This document shows, one piece after another, positions 43,866-63,230 of a stretch of 64,000 bases of DNA. The stretch comes from Thermodesulfobacteriota bacterium. Lineage in GTDB: Bacteria; Desulfobacterota; Anaeroferrophillalia; Anaeroferrophillales; Tharpellaceae. The position numbers and the translations under genes are program-made. The notes beneath the pieces were generated by a model. The model was not told where the DNA came from. It was given only the letters and a program-made list of their open reading frames with translations, and ran no database searches. Location: NCBI GenBank assembly GCA_024763535.1, contig JANTFH010000007.1, positions 1 through 64,000 of the forward strand, given 5' to 3'. Every line of letters starts with the position of its first letter. Position 1 is the stretch's first letter.

Positions 43866-44909
43866 TCACTCGCTATAGGTTGATTCGGCATACTGCTGTT
43901 TAATCCGGATTATTTCCGGCAGGACCTCGTGAAACAGCGGCACCAGACCGGGATCGAAATGACGACCGGCACTGTCGTCGATCAATTTAACCGCATCCTC
44001 AAGCGGCCAGGCTTTTTTATAGGGGCGCTCGGTCGTCAAAGCATCAAAAACATCGGCAATCGCCACAATCCGGGACGGCAGATTGATGGCCTCCCCTTTG
44101 AGCTGAAACGGGTATCCCGTTCCATCCCAGCGCTCATGATGAGCCAGCGCAATCTCCCGTGACATCTTCAATAGTTCAGAGTCATGTTCGCCGATAATCG
44201 CCGCCCCGAACTCGGGATGTTTATGCATCAGCTTCCACTCTTCATCATCGAGTTTTCCCGGTTTCAACAAAATCTTGTCGGGGATTCCGATTTTTCCGAT
44301 ATCGTGCATGGGAGCCGCATTAAAAACCAGATCAGACCACTCATGACCCCGCTCGACCGCTTCGGCTATCAGGCGGGTATAGTGACTCATGCGGATAACA
44401 TGCAGACCGGTTTCATTATCCCTGAACTCCGCTGCCCGGCCCAGACGCCGGATGATCTCTAAGCGGGTCTGCTGCAACTCCCGCGTGCGCTCACGCACCC
44501 TCTCCTCCAGCACCCGGTTCTGGTCATAGAGGGCCAGATGGGTATGCACCCGGGCTGAAACCAGCGGTGGGCTGACCGGTTTGGTTATATAATCCACCGC
44601 CCCGAGTTCCAGCCCCAGAGTCTCATCCGCCTCCTGGTCCTTCGCCGTAATAAAAATTACCGGAATCTTTGCGGTTGCGGGATTGGCCTTAAGTCGACGG
44701 CAGACTTCATAACCGTCCATCCCCGGCATCATGATATCGAGCAGGATCATATCCGGCTTGGCTGCACCATCGGCAATCTTTAATGCCCGGGCACCGTTAA
44801 GCGCGGCTTTAACTTTATACCGAGGCCGCAAAATACCGCTTAACACATCAACGTTTTCCGGGATATCATCGACAATCAATATAGTCTGTTTTACTTTTTC
44901 AGACTCCAT
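43866..44909 (-). CDS. Response regulator with HD-GYP domain (predicted c-di-GMP phosphodiesterase)
   Basis: ILIVDDIPENVDVL / MILLDIMMPGMDGYEVCRR receiver; MHDIGKIGIPDKILLKPGKL; HHERWDGTGYP. Confidence 0.93.
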   Translation of the reverse strand: MESEKVKQTILIVDDIPENVDVLSGILRPRYKVKAALNGARALKIADGAAKPDMILLDIMMPGMDGYEVCRRLKANPATAKIPVIFITAKDQEADETLGLELGAVDYITKPVSPPLVSARVHTHLALYDQNRVLEERVRERTRELQQTRLEIIRRLGRAAEFRDNETGLHVIRMSHYTRLIAEAVERGHEWSDLVFNAAPMHDIGKIGIPDKILLKPGKLDDEEWKLMHKHPEFGAAIIGEHDSELLKMSREIALAHHERWDGTGYPFQLKGEAINLPSRIVAIADVFDALTTERPYKKAWPLEDAVKLIDDSAGRHFDPGLVPLFHEVLPEIIRIKQQYAESTYSE

Positions 44910-44940: not shown

Positions 44941-47900
44941 TCAAGGCAAAGGTTCGACCGTGATCTTCGCAACTGTCAGAAAGGCATCCAGTTCGCTAAG
45001 TGCCGCCTCAAAATCGTAACGCCCGACGGTTTCGGCTATCTGCTTCAGGCTCCCGGTATACGCTGCGGCTCCGGGAAATTCAAGCAGTTCATCAATCATC
45101 TCAAGCGCATCGGTATCATCTTCCTGGAGAAGCTCCCGCAGCCGCATAAGCTGCAGCCTGAATGTTTCCACATCCAGCGAAACTGGAGTGGCCGTAATCT
45201 CAACCTCACTCTCCAGCAAGGACTCAAGGCCCGCCAACACCACTTCAAGAGCACCGGCAACCTCGACCAGCAGAGCGTCAATCCGGGCCGCCGGCAGATT
45301 ATCGCGGCAGGCGCTTTCCAGGGCCTGAGCTTTTTCCTGAATATCGGCCGCCCCGAGGTTACCGGCGACCCCTTTCAAAGAGTGCGCACACCGGATCGCG
45401 GCATCCGGGTCACTGCCGGTGCGGGCCTGTTGAAACCGAGACACAAAATCGGCTTCACTGAGTTTGAATTTAAGCAGTATTTTACGATAGAGTTTATGAT
45501 TCTGCTGGCAGACCGCCAGACCGGCCTTGACATTGATACCCGGCAGTTTGAAGATCTCGGCCGCCGGCAATTCAGCCTGAGGTTTTACAAGCGTCTCCAC
45601 AGCCGGTTGAGAAGGGGTAATCCAGCGGCCCATCGCGGCAAACATCTCTCTTACGTTAAGTGGTTTGGCGATGTGATCATTCATGCCCACCGCCAGGACC
45701 TTCTCCCGGTCGCCGGTCATGGCATTCGCGGTCATTGCCAGAATCGGCAGTTCCTTAAAACATTCCTGCTCGCGGATTCTGCGGGTCGCCGTATAGCCGT
45801 CCATCACCGGCATCTGGCAATCCATCAGGACTCCGTCAAATTTTTTCCGGCTGAGAATTTCCAGAGCTTCCTGACCGTTACCAGCGGTTTCAACGACAAT
45901 CCCTTTACTCGTCAGAAGTTCCAGTGCCAGTTCCATATTAATCTCATTATCCTCAACCAGTAAAATTTGGGCGCCGCGCAGTTTATCCGCTGTCGCCGCG
46001 ACCTCATCATAACGACTCCGAAGATGATCTCCGACAACTTCATAACCCATGGCAAGCATAATCGCATCCATCAGTGCCGACGGAGTTACCGGTTTAACGA
46101 GAAAACTCACAACCTTTATATCTGCCGCCGCCTGCCGAACATCTTCGCGGCCATAGGCCGTCATCATAATCACCTTCGGAACGACCTTCAGCGGAGTCGA
46201 TTCGATCTTCCGGATAGATTCAACCCCGTCCCGGCCCGGCATCTGCCAGTCCATCAGCACCAGCCGATAGGGATCACTCAAATCAGCCTCGATCAGCAGC
46301 GCAAGGGCCGCTTCACCGCTGCCGACCACATCAACCCGAAAGCCGAAACTGAGCAGCATAGCCTGGATAATCTCACGATTAGTCGCGTTGTCATCCACCA
46401 CCAGAGCCCGCACGTCACCCAGGATTCCGGGGATCAGGTGCCGGCTGGCATTCTCTCCCGGATGCCAGCCGAATTCAGCCGTAAACTTGAAGATACTGCC
46501 GACTCCCGGTTCACTCTCAACCCAGATTCGGCCGTGCATCATCTCAGTCAGCTTATGGGAGATGCTCAGGCCAAGTCCGGTACCGCCATACTTACGGGTA
46601 GTAGAACTATCGGCCTGACTGAACGACTGAAACAGTTTCTCCTGCTGGGCTTCGGTCATCCCGATACCGGAGTCCCGCACGGAAAACTGCAGCGTCACCC
46701 GGGTGTCATTTTTTTCGACAAGTGCGACCCCGATGACGATCTCTCCCCGCTCGGTAAACTTGACCGCGTTATTGCCGAGATTGACCAATATCTGCCCCAG
46801 CCGCAGTGGGTCTCCGACCAGGGAGGTCGGCACCTCGGCCGGCACATCAAACATCAGCTCAAGGCCTTTCTCCTCACTCTTCAGGCCAACCAGGTTGGCG
46901 AGACTCTCAAGTACATCTTCCAGACGAAAATCGACCTGCTCCATATCAAGTTTACCGGCCTCGATCTTGGAAAAATCCAGAATATCGTTGATAATGCCCA
47001 ACAGAGCGTCCGCCGAGCGGGAGACCTTGTCGATATAGTTGCGCTGTTTGCGAGTTAGTTCCGTCTGCAGCGCCAGTTGCGACATACCGATAATCGCATT
47101 CATCGGGGTTCTTATTTCATGCGACATATTCGCCAGGAAATCTGACTTGGCCCGGGTTGCCTCTTCCGCCCTCTCCTTGGCCCGGGCCAGCTCCTCCAGC
47201 AGCCGGTGACGCTCGGTCACATCCATCGCCACAACAATCTTCCGGTCACCGATGGTCACCGCGCTCCACTCCACGACCCGGTCCCGGCCGTCCTTACATC
47301 TGACCCTGGCCTCAAAGGGAACGATCAGAGTATTATGATTTTTCCGCGCCTCCTTCTCCCGTTCACTCCAGGTATCAATAACCTGCTGCCGGAGTTCAGG
47401 ATCGGGATAAGCCTTGATAAACCAGGTATCAAGATCGGGGATATCTTCCCGGGTCCAGCCGAAGAGTTCGATAAAGCGATGATTCAGATGATCAATACTA
47501 TTTGAACGATCCGAAACACTGTTCATGGAGATGGCAAACGGAGCAAACTCAATCAGTTTCTTAAGTTCCGCTTCAGCTGCCAACCGCTCCGTCAGATCGC
47601 GAAAGACCACCACGGCCCCGACAATGCTCCCGTCACGCCGCAGCGGGAGTGCGGAATACTCCACCGGGAAAGAGGAGCCGTCGCGGCACCACAAAACCTC
47701 ATTTTCGACCTGGTGAATCTCGCCGTCAGCATAAGCAGCCCGCATCGGGCAGAGGCTTTCATCATATTTAGAGCCGTCGGCGTGAGCATAGTGGATCGCC
47801 TCATGAATAGAGACCCCGATCAACTCTTTAACGCTGTAACCCAGTCGATTGGCGGCGGATCTATTATAGAAAGTTACCCGCCCCTCAGGATCAAGACCAA

Positions 47901-49827
47901 AGATTCCCTCGCCCACGGAATCAAACAGCAGACGGCTCCGCTCCTGAGCCTGCTGCAGAGCCTGCAAGACTTTATGCAGTTCATCCGTCCTCTTTTCAAT
48001 AGCGATTGCCATCGCATTGAAAACCTCGGTCAGCGATCCGAACTCATCATCAGCCTGAGGTTTGAGACACAGAGAGTAATCGCCTTGAGTCAGGGTGCGT
48101 GAGCCTTTTTCCAAATCGGAGAGGGGATAAATAATCCTCCGTCGAAAAAGAAAAAAGGCATAAAGCGAAAGACCGATAGTCATTGATATCAGGGCCACAA
48201 TAACCCATAGGATACTTACGTTCCGGGAGTGTTCACGATTCAATTCCCGGGTTGTACGGCGATCCATAAGAATAAAAAATTTATCGAGATTCCGCATGAT
48301 CTGCGATTTTATCTTAAGGTAACTGTCACCGTTTAAAATTTTACGGGCCAGATCCAGATCGGGCGAACCGGTAACGGAGAAATTACCGGACTCATCCTCG
48401 AAGCGGCCTTTAACAGCGTTTATGGCAACTCTTTCCAGGGCAACCAGAGCATCAGAGCGTTTTTTTGCCTCCTGGATAAGAAGTCGTTCTTCGGCGGAAA
48501 AATCCAGCCTCGCCATCTCCTCTTCAATGCTGTACATTTTGCCGCGATTATTCCTGGCTTTGGGATCGACCAGCACGTGATCCCAGTAGGAGAAGGTGTT
48601 CTCTTGCGGATGGGCATATTTGCCGTCCCGGATAGCAATAATTGTACGGAAATTCTCCTCAAACCGAGGATCTCCGGTCGCCGCGAAAAGACGAACCATC
48701 CGGGTCAGATCATCTGAGGACTGTTTCAGCTCCAACGCCAGTTTAAACGAGACAAACTTATTATTTTCAATGACAAACTGCTGCTGCACTCCATCCATAA
48801 GCAGCGAAACCATGACCCCGGCAAAAACCATCAACCCGGCAAAAACAGACAAAACAAGAAAGAGGAGCTTACGGATAGAGAGCCGCCGGGAATAGCCGAG
48901 AGCAAACCAGACAACCGCCATCAGGATTAAGATTATCAGAAAAGCTGCGGTAATCCGTTTAAACCAGGAAAAATCTTCCGCTTTCAGTATTTTATCCGAC
49001 AGCACAACGAACGGAGCAGAGGGCAAACTTTCACTTTGCACGGCAACTGAAACTTCGGCCCTGTCCGCCCGGGAAACCATCTGTGACCAGCGTTTGACAA
49101 TCTCCTCACGCTCATCCTGAGAGATAAGCTCCATCCCCTGATTCAAGGTCTTGAGCAATTCGCTATTGCCTTCGGCTACGGCCAGCCGCCAGGCATTGCG
49201 ATAGAGCAGATGGGTCGTAAAAGTCTTAAATTTCTTCAACAACCCATAACGTTTCAGTTGATAAATCCCGGTCGGGGTATCGGCCGCGAAGGCTTTCAAT
49301 TTTTCATCTTTGAGATCCGTCATCAGAGCCGCGTAGTCGCTGTAGGCAGCAACTGAATCCGGCGGCAGACGTTTTTTCAGGTAGGATTCCACATAATCTC
49401 CGGCGATAACCCCGACCCGATAACCGGCCAGATCGGCAATCGTTGTCAGCAGCGGAAGGTCACGACAGAGAAAAACATTGGTGTCGGTACGAGTCAGAAT
49501 CGCACCGTAATCTAAATAACGATCACGCTCTTTACTATAAAAGAGACCGGCGTGAACCTGAGATTCACCCTGCTTGACGCGGGTCAGAGTTTCACTCCAG
49601 GAGGCCGGCTGAAAATCGAGCTTGATCCCGGTTTTTTTAGACCACAAGCGCCATAAATCGATGATCATCCCGGCCGCTCGACCCTGCTCATTCTGAAATT
49701 GGAAAGGGACACAATCGACGCAGTAGGCAACACTTAGCGAGTTGCCGGCAGAAACTGCCGCCGGCCCGGCGAACAGGAAGAGCAAGATGATGACGGCAGA
49801 TAATTTCCCTAAACGAACATTGAACAT
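44941..49827 (-). CDS. Hybrid sensor histidine kinase: periplasmic SBP domain, TM, HAMP, two PAS, HisKA/HATPase, two receivers, Hpt
   Basis: [92 protein letters not shown]. Confidence 0.95.
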
Positions 49828-49940: not shown

Positions 49941-51677
49941 TTACTGTTCCGGGGCCGGAACCAGAGCGTTCTCGTTGTAGACATGAACATCACGCTGGGG
50001 AAAGGGAATCGAGATATTCGCGGCGTCAAATTTCAACTTAACCGCCCGGGTAACATCCCAGTACACATCCCAATAGTCCTCAACCCGAACCCAGGGGCGC
50101 ACAACAAAGTCCACGGAGGAAGCCCCCAGTTCGTGCAGCCGCACCACCGGTTCAGGATGTTTCAGCACCTTGTCATGGGATTGCAGGATCTCCTCCAGCA
50201 GAGCCTCGGCTTTGGGGATGTCGTCACTGTAGGAGATACCGAACACCATATCGATGCGGCGGGTCTCCTGAGCGGTTACATTTTTAATAACATCACCCCA
50301 GATCTTACTGTTGGGGATGACAATCACCTGATTATCCAGAGTCAACAACGTGGTCGAAACCAGATTCATCTTATTGACAACCCCGAAGACCCCGCCGACA
50401 TCGACCAGATCCCCGATATCATAGGGACGATAGACCAGAATCATCATCCCGGAGGCAAAATTACTCAGGGTATCCTGGAGGGCGAAACCAACAACAAAAC
50501 CGGCAACTCCAAGACCGGCCAGTAGCGGCCCCAAGCTGATACCGATTTGCGACAGGGCCAGAATAACCCCGAAGATCATAACCAACCGGGAAATCCAGGT
50601 AACAATCATATCCCGGGCCAGATGGGTAAATTTAAAATCCGGTCTATCGAACAATTTTATCAGACCGGAACGTAACAGACGCTTCATCAGGCTGAAGAAA
50701 TAGATAATGAGACAGAACAGCACTATTTTCATCAGGGCGGACGGACCATATTCGACCACCCCGTTAAACGCGGCATCCAGGGCCCGACGCGATAATCTCG
50801 TCAACACCCCGACACTGAGCAGCTGGGAGGCGAGATCCTGAGTGGTTGCCACCAGGCGGCTGCGATAATCTGCCGTATTGACATGCATCAGATCGAGTAG
50901 CTTCAGTGCCTTCTCCATGCTTTCTGAATTATTTTCCAGACATTTATTTGCCACAATCAGGAGTTTGGCCGCCTCGGCATCATCGGGAATAGATTTAAGC
51001 CGCTGTTTCAAATCATCCACTCGCACCAGCGACAAAGATATACGCCCGAAAAGCTCTTCCACCCGGCCGGTAAGCCGCCTTTGCAGAAGCTTATACTCGG
51101 ATTCAGTGTCCATGCCGATCTGACTCATCTTATCAAGAACATGAAGATTCATCTCCAGAAATCTATCCAGATAACCTGTCATCCGAGTCACCTGCAGTTG
51201 CAGGGCGTAGCTCTTTGCGGGAGGTGCCTCACGGCGCTGTTCACGAACGATATCTATCCGTTCACCCAAACGCTCGACTTCCGACTTTAAGTTTATCAAT
51301 ATCTGTTTGAAGACAGATTCAACCTGGTGCCGCAGTTCCACCTGCTTCTGCTTCTTTTCCAGTTCGATAAGATTATCCGCCAGCGGTAAAATAGTTTTCT
51401 CAGCCCGAAGCCAGAGTTGAGAAAGTTGCAAGATTATAACCAACCGCTCTTCAATGCTCTCATCTTGCATGGTGGCCTTAAGGCGTTTACTCTCAGCCGC
51501 AATCAGGTTGATCTGATGAAGCAAATTATTAGTATCCTGGTCGACAATTTCGACCGGCAGCTCCTTTACAACCTTAACAGATTTTTCCGCCGTAGGTTTG
51601 TCCGCCCGCACCGAACCGGGGAGAGTCAGGATCAAAGCAATCATTACAATCGTCGTGAGAATACGGCATACTTTCAT
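49941..51677 (-). CDS. MscS family mechanosensitive channel with long N-terminal extracytoplasmic domain
   Basis: LLAGLGVAGFVVGFALQDTLSNFASGMMILVYRPYDIGDLVDVGGVFGVV; VIVIPNSKIWGDVIKN. Confidence 0.93.
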   Translation of the reverse strand: MKVCRILTTIVMIALILTLPGSVRADKPTAEKSVKVVKELPVEIVDQDTNNLLHQINLIAAESKRLKATMQDESIEERLVIILQLSQLWLRAEKTILPLADNLIELEKKQKQVELRHQVESVFKQILINLKSEVERLGERIDIVREQRREAPPAKSYALQLQVTRMTGYLDRFLEMNLHVLDKMSQIGMDTESEYKLLQRRLTGRVEELFGRISLSLVRVDDLKQRLKSIPDDAEAAKLLIVANKCLENNSESMEKALKLLDLMHVNTADYRSRLVATTQDLASQLLSVGVLTRLSRRALDAAFNGVVEYGPSALMKIVLFCLIIYFFSLMKRLLRSGLIKLFDRPDFKFTHLARDMIVTWISRLVMIFGVILALSQIGISLGPLLAGLGVAGFVVGFALQDTLSNFASGMMILVYRPYDIGDLVDVGGVFGVVNKMNLVSTTLLTLDNQVIVIPNSKIWGDVIKNVTAQETRRIDMVFGISYSDDIPKAEALLEEILQSHDKVLKHPEPVVRLHELGASSVDFVVRPWVRVEDYWDVYWDVTRAVKLKFDAANISIPFPQRDVHVYNENALVPAPEQ

Positions 51678-51769: not shown

Positions 51770-52033
51770 TCATCTGGCCCGGGGCATCGGCCGCGGCGTT
51801 GGTCGTGGCGTTGGTCGTGGCGGCCGCGGTTTATCCGGGCGCTCAGGCCGATCCGGTCGCGACGGCCGTCCCGGACGATAATCGTGATAATGTACATGAT
51901 GGTGTCCCCAACTCGGATACGGGTCATAGTAACCGCCATAGTAAGTGGTGGACGAACCACCACTACATCCCGATAAAAGAAAAATAATCAGCAAAGATAT
52001 ACCGGCCAGCCACAATCTTAGAGATTTAGTCAT
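51770..52033 (-). CDS. Small lipoprotein with His cluster and Arg/Pro-rich tail
   Basis: MTKSLRLWLAGISLLIIFLLSGC lipobox; HHHVHYHDYRPGRPSRPDRPERPDKPRPPRPTPRPTPRPMPRAR; start overlaps upstream gene's end. Confidence 0.7.
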   Translation of the reverse strand: MTKSLRLWLAGISLLIIFLLSGCSGGSSTTYYGGYYDPYPSWGHHHVHYHDYRPGRPSRPDRPERPDKPRPPRPTPRPTPRPMPRAR

Positions 52034-52976
52034 GATCTCCTCCTCCGGCCACCGGCTCTTTTTCCCACTGCTGCACCACAAAAAGAGCCCCGGCGGGATC
52101 TTTGATCAAAGCCGCACTCTCATTATTGGAGGCGTCACCCGGCTCAACCAGTACCTTGCCGCCCAGCATTTCGGCATACCTTGAGGTTACTATCGTATCC
52201 GCTACCCGGACGGTCGGAACCCAGCGGGCTTCAAGATCTTTCTCCGCAATCAGACGCACCCCGGCCCGCCAGCGGTCGGTTTCCAGCAGCCAGTAGTTAT
52301 CATTCCAGCCAAGCACATGATAGCCGCCGAGTTTTTTATAAAAGGCCAGAGATGATTCCGGGTCATTACTCCATAACTCAACCCAGAGCCAGGAACCTAT
52401 CGCTGCCTCTAGATCTTCCGGATCACCACTTGAGGCATGCATCAGCACCAGTTGGGCGCCTTGCGGGTCGCTGACCAGAGCCATCCGACCGCGCTCTGCT
52501 TTATCAACCGGTCCTTCATGAACAACGCCTCCGGCCTGACGCACAAAAGCTGCCGCCCGGTCGACATCCGCGACCGAAAGTGACGCCAGCCAACGGGCCG
52601 CATGTTTCTCCTTATCTTTAGACTTTACTTCAACCACACCGCCAATAGTCTGTTTATCGTTTGCGATAACCGTGTAACGGCCGCGGGTCGTAAAAGTCCA
52701 GCCCAGCAGATTTCCGTAAAAGTTTTTGGCCCCTTCGACATCATCCGTCAACAGATCATACCAGACAAACTTGCCCGGATGATAGACTCCGGTTGCGGGA
52801 GAGGCCACCGGGGTTAATTCCAGTTGAGCACACCCGGAAATCAGGAAAAACAGCAGACCGGCAAACAGCAGAAGCCAACCCGGCCCTGACTGCTTGAACA
52901 ATAAGCCGACACCGTCTCTTCCCTCCCCCGAAACCGGAGCGCCAGTTATAAACCGCCCCATATCTTCACGAATCAT
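52026..52976 (-). CDS. Lipoprotein with tandem VOC/glyoxalase-like domains
   Basis: LLFFLISGC lipobox; GKFVWYDLLTDDVEGAKNFYGNLLGWTF and WLWVELWSNDPESSLAFYKKLGGY repeats; start chosen at MIREDMGRF. Confidence 0.85.
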   Translation of the reverse strand: MIREDMGRFITGAPVSGEGRDGVGLLFKQSGPGWLLLFAGLLFFLISGCAQLELTPVASPATGVYHPGKFVWYDLLTDDVEGAKNFYGNLLGWTFTTRGRYTVIANDKQTIGGVVEVKSKDKEKHAARWLASLSVADVDRAAAFVRQAGGVVHEGPVDKAERGRMALVSDPQGAQLVLMHASSGDPEDLEAAIGSWLWVELWSNDPESSLAFYKKLGGYHVLGWNDNYWLLETDRWRAGVRLIAEKDLEARWVPTVRVADTIVTSRYAEMLGGKVLVEPGDASNNESAALIKDPAGALFVVQQWEKEPVAGGGDHD

Positions 52977-53062
52977 ACTTTCTCCTCCATATCTGCTTAT
53001 TCTAAATTTGAGGCAGCTTGTAAAAACATAAAAAGCCCGTAAAGCTGTATTGCCGTAAATCA

Positions 53063-54223
53063 TCAATAGACTTTAACCAGAACTTTTAATGACCCGTTCT
53101 TGATGGAATCGACATAAAGGGTTCTTTGGCTTTTGCCGCTGGCGGTTATCGAAATCCTTCCGGAGATACCGGGAAAATCTTTTGTCTGTTTCAGCTTATT
53201 GTTAATTTCGGAACGATCCCCGAGGTCACGGCTGCGATTAAACGCATCACACAAGACAGCGTAGGCTTCAGCTCCGAGACCGGAATAGGAGGTTGGCGGG
53301 TGATCAAAAAGAGAGTCATAGGCTCTTAGAAGTTCCCTTTCATAGTCCGTTTTAAGACTATCAAGCTTTCTCTCCCCAAAAAACTCGGTTGCCATCAAAC
53401 CTTCCAGCAAATGTACATCACCCTGAAAACGGCTTAATACCGTTGCCAGAAGACCATCGCTGCTCATCAGCTTAGGATGCCAGTGAATCTTGCGGATGGC
53501 CTTAACCAGTTTTATCAGGCTCTCAGCCTTAATCGGCATATATACAAGCTGAGTTTTTTTGATCTTGAGACTCTCCATAATGGCGGGGACATCGTCAACC
53601 CCGTCGGAAACATTGACAATCGCCGTAATTTGACCTCCTGTTGATTCGAATTTACGCCTGAATTCAGCCGCCAGGCGAATCGAATAGGGGTTGTCGGGAT
53701 TGTCCATAATCGCCACTCTTTCAATCAGCAGTTCATCGCGGACAAAAAGAGCGGCCACCGAGCCCTGAAAGATATCATCAAAACAGAGCTGAGTTGTATA
53801 TTCACTGTGTTTAGCCACCTCCGGGTGGGTCGCAAGAATAGCAACGACCGGAATTTTATATCTGTCCACAAAGGGTTCCATGGCCAGAACCGAAGCGCTG
53901 TCTGAGAAACATAATATCGCGGCAACCTTCTCGATTTCCGCCAATTTCCGTAGAGCCGATATTGTCTGGGTCGGCTCGTCACCATCATCCTCAATCACTA
54001 GTTCAAGGGCGTCGCCATTATGCAGAAGCGGCTGAACCTTCATGGCCGCTTTAATCCCTTCAACGCCATTCACTCCCTGAGCCAAAAACTTGCCGCTCAT
54101 GGGACCGATTATGCCGATTTTAATGGTCTTACCGCTGGGCGTGATCGACTCTTTTTGCTCACATCCAGAGATTAACAACATGATTGCACATAAAAGAGCT
54201 GCCAGGAAAATAATTTTTTTCAT
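53063..54223 (-). CDS. Branched-chain amino acid type (Peripla_BP_6-like) substrate-binding lipoprotein
   Basis: LLCAIMLLISGC lipobox; IKIGIIGPMSGKFLAQGVNGVEGIKAAM; VIEDDGDEPTQTISALRKLAE. Confidence 0.88.
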   Translation of the reverse strand: MKKIIFLAALLCAIMLLISGCEQKESITPSGKTIKIGIIGPMSGKFLAQGVNGVEGIKAAMKVQPLLHNGDALELVIEDDGDEPTQTISALRKLAEIEKVAAILCFSDSASVLAMEPFVDRYKIPVVAILATHPEVAKHSEYTTQLCFDDIFQGSVAALFVRDELLIERVAIMDNPDNPYSIRLAAEFRRKFESTGGQITAIVNVSDGVDDVPAIMESLKIKKTQLVYMPIKAESLIKLVKAIRKIHWHPKLMSSDGLLATVLSRFQGDVHLLEGLMATEFFGERKLDSLKTDYERELLRAYDSLFDHPPTSYSGLGAEAYAVLCDAFNRSRDLGDRSEINNKLKQTKDFPGISGRISITASGKSQRTLYVDSIKNGSLKVLVKVY

Positions 54224-56115
54224 AGGATGTATTCTATCTTTGCTCTGATAACAATTCTGTTGGGGAAATTACTTCTTATCTTCATTTTAAGCTGATTCAG
54301 ATCTTTGCGGGAGAGTGATTCACGGGCCAGGATATCCATAAAGATAACATCCACATCCTCCTGAGTACTCAAACGAATATTACGGATAATAATATATTTC
54401 CCGTTAACCAGAAAACGTTCAACCTGCCATCTTTTCTCCGCATGGTATTTGTTTAGAATTTTATTATATGAATAGTAGAGGGGCACGGTTATCAAAGCCA
54501 GAGCCAGAAGCACTGCCAGAACACTGCGCCGGGCCTTGACCGCAGGTGAAAAACCGAGAACCAGAAAGGTAAAAATAGACGCAAAAACGATGCCGAACAG
54601 ATTGGTTATAAAAAGGAGAAAGGCATGGCTGAAAAAGTATACATCACCGCGGCCGAGACCAATCCCGGCAACTGCCAGAGGCGGCACCAGAGCCACTGCA
54701 ATAGCAACCCCGGCCAGACCCTGCATGATCTCCTGAAATGACTTCGTATAGGCCGCGGCAACTCCGGCGATAACCGCGACACCTAGGTCAAGCAGCGTCG
54801 GATTAAGCCGCCCCTGCATCTCACTGGTAAGCGGTTTGTATGAAAAGAACAGTACCAGCAGAGCGGAAGCACTCAGAGCCAGAAGCACACCCAGGCCGAT
54901 TTTTTTCATGGAGTTTATCGTCAGCTCATCATCATAGCGCAAGAGACCCATGGCCAATGAGACAATCGGTGCCATCAGCGGAGCCAGCAGCATCGCTCCG
55001 ATAACCACTGCCGATGAGTTGAGATAGACCCCGATAGTCGCCAGCAAAGTACTGAGCAGCATCAAGACAATATAGGAAGTATCAATTTTCGCGTCACTGC
55101 GAAGAGCTATAAAGAGGGTTTTGAAACGATCTTCCGAAGCCACCGAGAAAAAGGGCAGGTGCTTTTGCTGCAGTTTAACCACCTCTTTCCCGCGGGGCAG
55201 ATTATCTATTTCAATTTTTTCCTCCGTCCCACTCTGACCCGAAACCTCTTCCCGGGCATTAATCCCGAGGTTGATCCGCACAGCCTGCTTCTCCACCCGG
55301 CAGGAGACAGGGGTTTTAGTAACTCCTTCACCATCGACAACAACATCCAGTTCAACCCCGGAATTGATAGTTATCTCAGGACTCTTGATATAACCGACCG
55401 TATGAGAAAGTTTTCTCTTCCGGCGGGAAAAACCGAGGCAAGAGAAGATAAACTGCAGATAGGAATAGATGGAAAAAGGGGCGGAAATCAGCAATGAAAC
55501 CTTGCCATCAACGCTGGAACTGTCAGTATTAATAACGGTTGCTGCCCGGGTTCCGTGATGATGCTGGATGATCATACAACCGCTGGCGCAGGTATCGACC
55601 TTTTTGCCGCTGCCGGTTGTAAAATTAAATGGCAGCAGCCTGAGCCCGGATAACTTTCTCACTCCATTCTTCAGCAGTTGCAGGCGGCTTGTATCTCCGA
55701 CCGCCTCCAGTAGCGGCAGACGCCCCACAGTCGCCTTAAAAAGCAGCATTTTATCGTTACAAAAGACCAGGTCAAACGGCTGGGCCACCCCTTCCTGCAG
55801 GGCCAGATCGATACCCGCAGACACCGTCGGCGAAAGGTCATAGCAGCTGATCAGATCTCTCTGCGACGGCAGGGCCACAATCCCGATACTGAAACCTGCA
55901 GTTTTCGCCAAACCAAAGACCTTTTTAATCAACTCGATTGATCCGGACACAACCACATGTCTTACCTTTTTCTCACGAGTTTGCAAAAGCTCTTCCAGAC
56001 CGTCTATCTCAACGCAGGTAACCTCAGTTTCAAAAGGATTATCCTGCATGGACTCACAGATATATTCACTCTCTTTATCATAAACAAAAATCGCTCTTTT
56101 TACGTAACCATCCAT
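54220..56115 (-). CDS. DUF389 / TIGR00341-type membrane protein with N-terminal degenerate diacylglycerol-kinase-like region
   Basis: LLSTLLATIGVYLNSSAVVIGAMLLAPLMAPIVSLAMGLLRYD; N-terminal VVVSGSIELIKKV...ELDVVVDGEGVTKTPVSCRV; start chosen at MDGYVKRA. Confidence 0.87.
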   Translation of the reverse strand: MDGYVKRAIFVYDKESEYICESMQDNPFETEVTCVEIDGLEELLQTREKKVRHVVVSGSIELIKKVFGLAKTAGFSIGIVALPSQRDLISCYDLSPTVSAGIDLALQEGVAQPFDLVFCNDKMLLFKATVGRLPLLEAVGDTSRLQLLKNGVRKLSGLRLLPFNFTTGSGKKVDTCASGCMIIQHHHGTRAATVINTDSSSVDGKVSLLISAPFSIYSYLQFIFSCLGFSRRKRKLSHTVGYIKSPEITINSGVELDVVVDGEGVTKTPVSCRVEKQAVRINLGINAREEVSGQSGTEEKIEIDNLPRGKEVVKLQQKHLPFFSVASEDRFKTLFIALRSDAKIDTSYIVLMLLSTLLATIGVYLNSSAVVIGAMLLAPLMAPIVSLAMGLLRYDDELTINSMKKIGLGVLLALSASALLVLFFSYKPLTSEMQGRLNPTLLDLGVAVIAGVAAAYTKSFQEIMQGLAGVAIAVALVPPLAVAGIGLGRGDVYFFSHAFLLFITNLFGIVFASIFTFLVLGFSPAVKARRSVLAVLLALALITVPLYYSYNKILNKYHAEKRWQVERFLVNGKYIIIRNIRLSTQEDVDVIFMDILARESLSRKDLNQLKMKIRSNFPNRIVIRAKIEYIL

Positions 56116-56191
56116 AAATCTACACAAACTCAAATTAAATGGGCAAAGCATTTATCCTCAGGGAAGAGCCCCTGAGGTTCAGATATCCATA

Positions 56192-56220
56192 ACTATACTT
56201 GTTAAGTATCCTATTGTCAA
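56192..56220 (-). promoter_or_regulatory. Near-consensus sigma70 promoter upstream of DUF389 gene with embedded inverted repeat
   Basis: Minus strand TTGACA - ataggatacttaacaag (17) - TATAGT; IR ATACTT-gtt-AAGTAT at 56195-56209. Confidence 0.72.
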
Positions 56221-60408: not shown

Positions 60409-61863
60409 TTAACGCTTCCAGAACATCGGCGTAAACAGCACCAGCACGGTATATAGCTCAAGGCGTCCGGCGAGCATGGCGAAGCTTAAGAGCCATTTGA
60501 TCGGATCAATGAAATGGGCGTAGTTTTTAGTCGGCCCGACCAGGCCGAAGCCGGGCCCGATATTACCGACGGTGGCCAGGGCCGCAGTCAGTGAACTTAA
60601 CAGATCAACCCCGGAGAGACAGACCGCAAAGGTCACCAGCAGAACAATGGCAATATAGAGAAAAAAGAAACCGGAGATCGCATAAACAGTATTTTTCGGT
60701 ACCACCTTGCCGGAGATACGCAGCGGGAAAATCGCCTTAGGATGAAGCAGATACTTCATCTCATTAACTGCCTGTTTGAAAAGGGTAACCAAGCGAACCA
60801 CTTTGATTCCGCCGCCGGTCGAACCGGAACAGCCGCCGATGAACATTAACAGAAACAGAATCGCCTGGGCAACATGGGGCCAGGTCTCATAATCAGCACT
60901 GACAAAGCCGGTAGTTGTTAAAATTGACGCAACCTGAAAGGCGGCATAACGCAGAGAATCCTTAAAGGCGGGATAGACTTCATGCAGGCTGAGAATTACA
61001 GCGACCGTAAGGGTTGCGGCCGCAAATATCAGGAGGTAGGCTTTCAATTCGGAATTTTTCAACAGCGATCGGGCCTGGCCCGTCAAGAGCCGGAAATGGA
61101 GAACGAAGTTCATCCCCGCCGCGACCATGAAGAAGGTGATCACCCAATCGATGTAAGCCGAGTTAAAATGCTCGACACTGCCGTTTTTGGTTGAAAAACC
61201 ACCGGTTGCCAGGGTGCCGAAGGTATGAATCAGAGAGTCGATGAAACTCATGCCGCCGAACATCAGCATCAGGGTTTCAACCACCGTCATGCCGAGATAG
61301 ATATACCAGAGATATTTTGCCGTTTCCGTAATCCGCGGAGTTATTTTATCTACCGTCGGCCCCGGCGCCTCGGCCTTTACCAGCTGCAGGCCGCCGACCC
61401 CGAGCAGCGGCAGGATAGCAACCGTCAGAACGACAATTCCCATGCCGCCGAGCCAGTGGGTCAGGGAGCGCCAGTAGAGAATCGAATGGGGCAGGCTCTG
61501 AATTTCGGTCAGGATTGATGCCCCGGTCGTGGTAAAACCGGAGATCGTCTCAAAATAGGCGTCGCAGAACGAGGGAATCGCCCCGGAGAGATAGAAGGGC
61601 AGGGCCCCGAACAGAGCAACAATCACCCAACTGCCGGTAACAAAGAGAAAACCGTCCTTGAATGAAGGATTAGAGTGCGGTGATGAACGCACCCAGAGAA
61701 GAAAGCCCCCGGCCAGAAAAACGGTTACCCCCACAACTGAAGCAAAGGTTTTAGCCTCCGCCATTTCATTGAAGGAGATAGCCACGGCCACCGCCGTCAG
61801 CATAAAAGCACAGACGATCAGAAGCAGGTAGGATATTATCCGTAAAACAATTTTAGGATTCAT
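60409..61863 (-). CDS. trkH: Trk potassium uptake membrane component
   Basis: ISGFTTTGASILTEIQSLP; LATGGFSTKNGSV; FIGGCSGSTGGGIKVVRL; TVGNIGPGFG. Confidence 0.95.
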   Translation of the reverse strand: MNPKIVLRIISYLLLIVCAFMLTAVAVAISFNEMAEAKTFASVVGVTVFLAGGFLLWVRSSPHSNPSFKDGFLFVTGSWVIVALFGALPFYLSGAIPSFCDAYFETISGFTTTGASILTEIQSLPHSILYWRSLTHWLGGMGIVVLTVAILPLLGVGGLQLVKAEAPGPTVDKITPRITETAKYLWYIYLGMTVVETLMLMFGGMSFIDSLIHTFGTLATGGFSTKNGSVEHFNSAYIDWVITFFMVAAGMNFVLHFRLLTGQARSLLKNSELKAYLLIFAAATLTVAVILSLHEVYPAFKDSLRYAAFQVASILTTTGFVSADYETWPHVAQAILFLLMFIGGCSGSTGGGIKVVRLVTLFKQAVNEMKYLLHPKAIFPLRISGKVVPKNTVYAISGFFFLYIAIVLLVTFAVCLSGVDLLSSLTAALATVGNIGPGFGLVGPTKNYAHFIDPIKWLLSFAMLAGRLELYTVLVLFTPMFWKR

Positions 61864-61874
61864 GGATTTTGCGA

Positions 61875-63230
61875 TCAACTCAGGAAAAGTTCTTCCAGAG
61901 CGTCAACCTGCTCCGCTTTGGCAAAGGTAACCACATTATCCCCGGCTTCAATAACAAACTCGCCGTTGGGAACAAAATTCTTGCTCTCTCCGTTCCGGCT
62001 CCGGTTGACCGCCACCACCAGGGTTCCATTCGGCAGCTGCATCTCTTTAACCATCTTGCCGGCTATACGGCTTAAGGGGCTGATCGCAAACTCGATCGCT
62101 TCAGCCTTACCGTCAAAGATTGAATAGATCCGTTTAATATTTCCCCGCCGGACATATTTCAAAATCGCGCTGACGGAACTGGCCTTGGGACTGACGATCG
62201 CGTCGATCTTCAATTTATCGGCAATATTGATATAGCTCGATTTGTTGACTACCGGCACCACCCGTTTGATCCCCAGACTCTTGGCGTAGAGTGCAGTGAG
62301 CATGTTCAGGGCTTCATCCGGGGTGGTAGTTACCAGCAGGTCGGAGGTGTAGAGCTGCTCATCCTCGAACAGTTTATCATCGGAGATATCCTCGTTGATC
62401 ACCAGCGCCTCGGGAAAACGCTCCGCGAGGTACTTGCAGTGCTGATAATTTTTTTCGACAATCTTGACACTGCGTCCGCTGCCTAAAAGGAATTCAGTTA
62501 CATAACAGCCGATCTTACCCCCGCCGACGACCACGACATTATGCAACTCCTGCCGCTTCAAGCCGGTGCGGGCAAAGATTCGTTCCATATTTTGCCGGCT
62601 GGCGACAATGTAGACCCTGTCTCCCGGGAGAATTCGGGTATCACCGTAGGGTATGAGGAGCTCCTCATCCCGGCTGATGCCGGCAATAATGAAATTGTGA
62701 CTCATCGCAACCCGGGCCTCACGCAGGGTTTTATCACGAAAGATTGAATTCTCGTCAACAAAGATGCTGCGCAACTGAATATCGGTATCATCGAAAACCA
62801 GCACCTCACCGGTGGCTCCGTAAGCGACGATGTTCATGATGGCCCGAGCGGCCTCGATTTCGGGATTGACGACATAATCGATACCGAGACTGGTATTGTT
62901 CAGGATACCACTGCGGCGGTACTGGATACTGCGTACCCGGGCGATCTTGGTTTTCACATCGAATTCGTTCGCGACCACAAGACAGGAGACGATATTGACC
63001 TCATCCAGATTGGAGACCGCGATAAAGGTATTGGCCTCGTCGACTCCGGCTTCGGCCAGGGTTGCCGGGTCACTGCATTCTCCCTGAACTACCATACAGT
63101 CAAGATGGTCGGCCACAAACTTGGCCCGCTGCGGATCCTTTTCGATCAGCACCACATCCTGATGACTGGTAACCAGTTGTTCGGCCAGATGAAATCCGAC
63201 TTCTCCGGAACCGGCGATAACTATTCTCAT
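61875..63230 (-). CDS. trkA: Trk system K+ regulatory NAD-binding protein
   Basis: MRIVIAGSGEVGFHLAEQLV; VVVGGGKIGCYVTEFLL; two RCK_N/RCK_C repeats. Confidence 0.95.
   Translation of the reverse strand: MRIVIAGSGEVGFHLAEQLVTSHQDVVLIEKDPQRAKFVADHLDCMVVQGECSDPATLAEAGVDEANTFIAVSNLDEVNIVSCLVVANEFDVKTKIARVRSIQYRRSGILNNTSLGIDYVVNPEIEAARAIMNIVAYGATGEVLVFDDTDIQLRSIFVDENSIFRDKTLREARVAMSHNFIIAGISRDEELLIPYGDTRILPGDRVYIVASRQNMERIFARTGLKRQELHNVVVVGGGKIGCYVTEFLLGSGRSVKIVEKNYQHCKYLAERFPEALVINEDISDDKLFEDEQLYTSDLLVTTTPDEALNMLTALYAKSLGIKRVVPVVNKSSYINIADKLKIDAIVSPKASSVSAILKYVRRGNIKRIYSIFDGKAEAIEFAISPLSRIAGKMVKEMQLPNGTLVVAVNRSRNGESKNFVPNGEFVIEAGDNVVTFAKAEQVDALEELFLS

Follow-up and report, generated by a model that had tools for sequence, protein, structure and literature searches.

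A lipid-kinase-headed DUF389 membrane protein and the orphan binding lipoprotein encoded beside it in a Thermodesulfobacteriota genome: a possible link to ion and osmotic balance

Introduction

What does a solute-binding lipoprotein serve when the gene beside it encodes a DUF389 membrane protein and no ABC permease is near? The question is raised by a 64,000-nucleotide stretch of a Thermodesulfobacteriota contig (hereafter the window), where such a gene pair lies next to genes for a second lipoprotein and a very small third one. In the literature we searched, from which subscription journals were mostly absent, no function was found for DUF389 or TIGR00341, and some papers there list DUF389 just as a gene of unknown function; matches to DUF3892 and DUF3893 proved to be false matches. 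The family itself is widespread, with members in five of 14 named control genomes. Here we ask whether the genes of the window form one system, which of them belong together, and what the DUF389 protein and its neighbour might do.

Layout of the locus

Four minus-strand genes encode, in order of transcription, a DUF389 membrane protein with an N-terminal lipid-kinase-like domain (54220-56151, 643 aa; ORF and Pfam PF04087), an orphan LivK-type binding lipoprotein of the Peripla_BP_6 type, here called the SBP (53063-54223, 386 aa; ORF and PF13458, E 1e-35), a two-domain VOC (glyoxalase-superfamily) lipoprotein (52026-52976, 316 aa; PF00903, E 1.1e-15, in two stretches), and a His/Tyr- and Arg-Pro-rich mini-lipoprotein (51770-52033, 87 aa; ORF). 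ORFs, sequence and Pfam confirm the four genes as a sequence-only reading of this DNA had described them. The two overlaps it reported are likewise present: the DUF389 stop and the SBP start share an ATGA, and the mini-lipoprotein start overlaps the VOC stop by 8 bases. A strong Shine-Dalgarno sequence, GGAGGAGAAAGTATG, precedes the VOC gene. Lipoboxes (LISGC, LISGC and LLSGC) occur in the SBP, VOC and mini-lipoprotein products, that of the SBP at 54161-54175 (minus strand) with its Cys kept in five of five SBPs; the fourth product, the DUF389 protein, has 6-7 predicted membrane segments.

The same reading took these genes as one compact module, for envelope sensing or for lipids or metals, behind a single strong promoter. 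Several features of the window speak for a joint unit: all four genes are on the same strand with short gaps, no terminator-like site was found in the 86-bp gap between the SBP and VOC genes or in the 92-bp gap after the mini-lipoprotein gene, and a sigma-70-like promoter (TTGACA-17-TATAGT, 56192-56220, minus strand) matches the consensus at 11 of 12 positions. The promoter is a consensus match only, and no equivalent was seen by eye before the genes of relatives. The boundary drawn for the module also missed a gene for an MscS-family mechanosensitive channel (49941-51677, minus strand; PF00924, E 6.6e-20), which lies 92 bp past the mini-lipoprotein gene, probably extends the run, and follows a mini-lipoprotein gene in G004 as well. 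The DUF389 gene has TrkH and TrkA potassium-uptake genes some 4 kb upstream (60409-63230, minus strand). After the MscS gene comes a very large hybrid histidine kinase (44941-49827), which combines an N-terminal SBP_bac_3 sensor with HAMP and PAS domains, two receivers and Hpt, and then an HD-domain response regulator (43866-44909); a hybrid histidine kinase also directly follows MscS in G002 (L123).

Two gene pairs across genomes

The subfamily of DUF389 proteins with the kinase-like head was found in six genomes from two classes (G000, G004, G010, G017, G032 and G069), and in all six it occurs together with the SBP. In five the SBP gene is the next one downstream, at -4 to +8 bp from the DUF389 gene. 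The sixth case, G069, is split between contigs: its DUF389 gene is cut off where the contig ends, and an SBP C-terminus lies at the edge of a different contig, ahead of IleRS. IleRS also follows in G032, where the order is DUF389-SBP, then AsmA and IleRS. The G017 locus, like that of G069, is cut by contig ends. Full-length SBP orthologues were confined to genomes with this subfamily among the 79 related genomes searched, and they stand well apart from other proteins (43-65% identity, E <1e-98, against next best matches at no more than 29%, E 4e-42). Since G032 belongs to another class and its proteins are 43-45% identical, the pairing is either old or has been transferred as a unit. No SBP was found beside the more distant kinase-headed DUF389 proteins of G209, G333 and G350.

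The DUF389-SBP pairing is thus well supported, within a subfamily that is rare and patchy (six of 79 nearby genomes, three of 13 searched genomes of the genus), so that the sample is small. A longer match to the kinase-headed protein was seen in 10 of 395 genomes of the phylum, including a shorter one in G353, and a contig scan returned a single relative with a layout identical to that of G010. Most relatives are fragmented MAGs, and the deep search covered one phylum. In G004, a gene for a 1303-aa secreted protein with LVIVD repeats and fn3 domains lies upstream of the PNPOx-DUF389-SBP run (L064:3944-7855), and one like it precedes PNPOx in G002 (L201).

The VOC and mini-lipoprotein genes follow a distribution of their own. 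They occur together at nine loci (G000, G007, G008, G011, G013, G015, G017, G022 and G375), eight of which have no DUF389 or SBP gene alongside, and base-level comparison of seven loci places the mini-lipoprotein start at the VOC stop or within a few bases of it. The VOC lipoprotein matches Rv0577 (PDB 3oxh) at E 8e-21, its paired VOC modules scoring above the cut-off for PF00903 (58.6 bits, two stretches). The mini-lipoproteins are rich in Tyr, Gly and His in the middle and in Arg-Pro in the tail, and none of those tested has a Pfam family. The two genes are a conserved coupled pair, the smaller of which represents an unnamed family of small lipoproteins. The double VOC domain is shared with Rv0577 and KbpA; the window protein differs in having a lipid anchor and a coupled mini-lipoprotein that belongs to no known family.

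Recurrence of the neighbourhood in related genomes, which the sequence-only reading had named as its check, fails for the set of four and holds strongly for each pair. At least five genomes have the VOC-mini pair without a kinase-headed DUF389 protein, and in two of the six DUF389-SBP genomes that pair stands without the VOC and mini-lipoprotein genes. G017 has both pairs, on different contigs; in G004 the DUF389-SBP run is closed by a convergent RND gene, and the mini-lipoprotein gene, cut by a contig edge and followed by MscS, is on a different contig. The one arrangement in a sister genome that favours the four-gene model is that of G010, in the order DUF389-SBP-K+ channel-VOC up to the contig end. 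These neighbourhoods rule out a conserved module of all four genes, and we regard an envelope sensing or lipid/metal module of four genes as improbable. With the two pairs mostly apart across genomes, the set in the window is a local assembly of the two. No cleanly empty counterpart of the region between PNPOx and MscS was found in sister genomes, where synteny is too fluid and contigs are too short.

The binding lipoprotein

The SBP has the Peripla_BP_6 fold, export signal and amino-acid site of LivK-type HAAT binding proteins, and by profile it matches PDB 3td9 (E 2e-57). When it is aligned with LivJ and LivK of E. coli (compare 1z15 and 2liv), S109, T132 and P134 are invariant and Y180 nearly so, and D256 stands where LivJ has its acidic residue. 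The aligned positions of LivJ contact the alpha-amino and carboxylate groups of the ligand. Tyr202, the aromatic lid position of LivJ, is not retained. From the positions kept, the ligand site is apparently in working order. The structure model of the SBP (pLDDT 47) was too poor to use.

The fold and the Ser, Thr and acidic positions of the amino-acid site are thus common to the SBP and LivJ/LivK. The SBP differs in being a lipoprotein that adjoins a DUF389 gene and has no LivHMGF. Neither a LivH/LivM permease nor a LivG/LivF ATPase is encoded beside it, as had been noted from the window alone. The assembly as a whole, about 95% complete, has five LivH/LivM permease pairs, each adjoined by its own Peripla_BP_6 protein, and no unpaired one; every pair being served already, the SBP of the window is an orphan. 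An ABC permease elsewhere that was specific for the SBP, the finding that the sequence-only reading had said would count against it, is therefore not left over in the assembly. No DctQM or TctAB subunits were found as a membrane partner of the SBP, which leaves DUF389 as the sole one, and no sequence link from the SBP to MscS or Trk was detected.

The DUF389 protein

The head of the DUF389 protein (residues ~14-300; 55252-56112, minus strand) has the DAGK/NAD-kinase-like fold of the YegS/DgkB lipid kinases, matching PDB 4wer both by a profile of nine homologues (E 4.1e-13) and by Foldseek with the predicted model (E 1.2e-13; mean pLDDT 75). The start Met lies at about 56115 in most relatives. 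The head shares the fold and several conserved positions with YegS, DgkB and BmrU (4wer, 2qv7, 2bon), but scores far below the lipid-kinase cut-offs and lacks the GGDGT nucleotide loop. This loop is absent from all eight sequences that cover the motif columns, that of the window included, and is replaced by VSGSIE, VAGSLA, ISGDLT, YLGDRE and other variants, which makes ordinary kinase activity unlikely. Judged by these residues, the head is probably catalytically degenerate and unlikely to bind ATP in the normal manner. Its initial description as a pseudo-lipid-kinase fused to DUF389 is borne out.

Of the NDG-type motif the head keeps the DG, and of the DGE-type motif the Asp. Together with the YegS/DgkB fold, this could fit a membrane-lipid sensor that binds a diacylglycerol-like lipid without phosphorylating it, so that bilayer composition would control DUF389, with the SBP as a second input or a structural part. 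Other DUF389 proteins have a Usp domain or only short termini at this place; that argues for an exchangeable head, which might have any specificity, and we think the lipid-sensor explanation quite unlikely. The variety of heads in the phylum points to a regulatory input that can be swapped. In one DUF389 protein, that of G152 (L073:7526-9388), the N-terminal head is a Usp domain rather than a lipid-kinase-like one.

The hydrophobic region (residues ~354-566; 54454-55092, minus strand), delimited by Pfam, TIGR00271 and TIGR00341, hydropathy and the model, contains the predicted membrane segments. It scores above the cut-offs of Pfam PF04087 (E 3.5e-36; 124.7 bits against 23.9) and TIGR00341 (98 against 94.75 bits). 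This membrane domain is what the window protein shares with the PF04087, TIGR00341 and TIGR00271 proteins, from which it differs by its head. Two Pro/Gly-rich membrane motifs, GAMLLAPLMAPI and AVALVPPLAVAGIG, are conserved. Among the matches listed for Foldseek with the full model, almost all have the lipid-kinase/NAD-kinase fold, and none is a solved structure homologous to the membrane domain. A small alpha/beta domain is predicted at the C-terminus (54223-54423, minus strand), whose charge (17 K+R against 9 D+E) is ambiguous as to the side of the membrane.

Could the pair be a transporter in its own right? DUF389 might carry an amino-acid-like solute delivered by the SBP, with no ATPase, in the manner of TRAP and TTT secondary transporters, which likewise join a binding protein to a membrane protein without an ATPase. 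The strict two-gene pairing, the retained amino-acid-site positions, the two conserved membrane motifs and the lack of a spare ABC permease in the assembly all fit such a system, which would be built from unrelated parts: TRAP and TTT share neither the SBP family nor the membrane family with DUF389 and its SBP. Against it, most DUF389 genes of the phylum have no SBP gene next to them, whereas the subfamily of the window has one after it in every genome; the pseudo-kinase head is left unexplained; no internal repeat like that of inverted-repeat transporters was found in the membrane domain (HHalign probability 0.2%); and the neighbours of DUF389 genes, described below, are ion and osmotic genes. 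We consider this explanation rather unlikely.

Ion and osmotic context

In G010 a K+ channel gene (Ion_trans_2, TLGYGD filter; L065:4930-5640) lies between the SBP and VOC genes; no remnant of it was found in the window. In G017 a TrkH gene is near the VOC-mini pair (L120:918-2456). Across the phylum, 50 operon-like or near neighbours of other DUF389 genes include five with an MscS beta domain, three E1-E2 ATPases, two matches to sodium/proton antiporter families, two trehalose-phosphate synthases/phosphatases, one Kup and one TrkH; because two of the MscS loci were included by hand, these numbers do not by themselves give an unbiased count. A second set, picked solely for distance and length, takes in 100 neighbours no more than 1 kb away; four of these are MscS genes, two of them from one family. 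At a background of roughly 1.9 MscS genes in about 2800 genes, an estimated gene number, about 0.07 would be expected. A distal control of 100 neighbours, taken from the loci of this set, contains one (fewer than two), so that against this control alone the enrichment is weak or not significant.

Four loci from three other families (L076, L132, L133 and L157) have DUF389 beside MscS or two genes from it, and in L133 the two genes overlap by 4 bases. Genes beside DUF389 at L081, L125, L132, L124, L145 and L126 include trehalase/GH15, NhaA-like, Na+/H+ exchanger, Kup and cation P-type ATPase genes.

These neighbourhoods suggest an osmotic or ion-related role for the family, and an ion/osmotic theme of its context is likely, if not proven. 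The MscS and TrkHA genes of the window, the K+ channel of the relative and the NhaA, Kup and trehalose genes elsewhere favour ion or osmotic homeostasis over the sensing of lipids or metals initially proposed. That the locus lies at the envelope, is no ABC transporter and corresponds to no named system was rightly seen from the start.

Proposed function

The window juxtaposes two independent conserved pairs and an MscS gene, and we see about an even chance that the SBP acts as the extracytoplasmic ligand partner of DUF389 in ion or osmotic homeostasis. The SBP, anchored by its lipid outside the inner membrane, would bind an amino-acid-like solute; having lost an ABC transporter, or never having had one, it would serve DUF389 instead. 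Most likely the loaded SBP would then change the state of the DUF389 membrane domain, either its gate or its activity, while the pseudo-kinase head, presumably cytoplasmic, would be a control point that binds a ligand, a lipid or a partner protein. The output would be a flux of ions or solutes in osmotic balance, alongside MscS and Trk. We infer the contact between SBP and DUF389, the direction of signalling, the ligand, and the role of DUF389 as channel/transporter or as regulator; as DUF389 has no known activity, its part as a transporter or channel is drawn from the neighbourhoods.

More tentatively, and with somewhat less confidence than an even chance would imply, we propose that DUF389 and a LivK-type lipoprotein form an undescribed, ABC-independent system under binding-protein control, in which the membrane protein would be a channel or transporter gated by a solute, have the pseudo-lipid-kinase head as its regulatory domain and act in osmotic or ion balance. 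Such a system would add to the few cases of a periplasmic binding protein that serves a partner other than an ABC transporter. For the DUF389 family, the fixed partnership with the SBP, together with the MscS, NhaA, Kup and trehalose neighbourhoods, offers a first concrete and testable idea of what these proteins may do.
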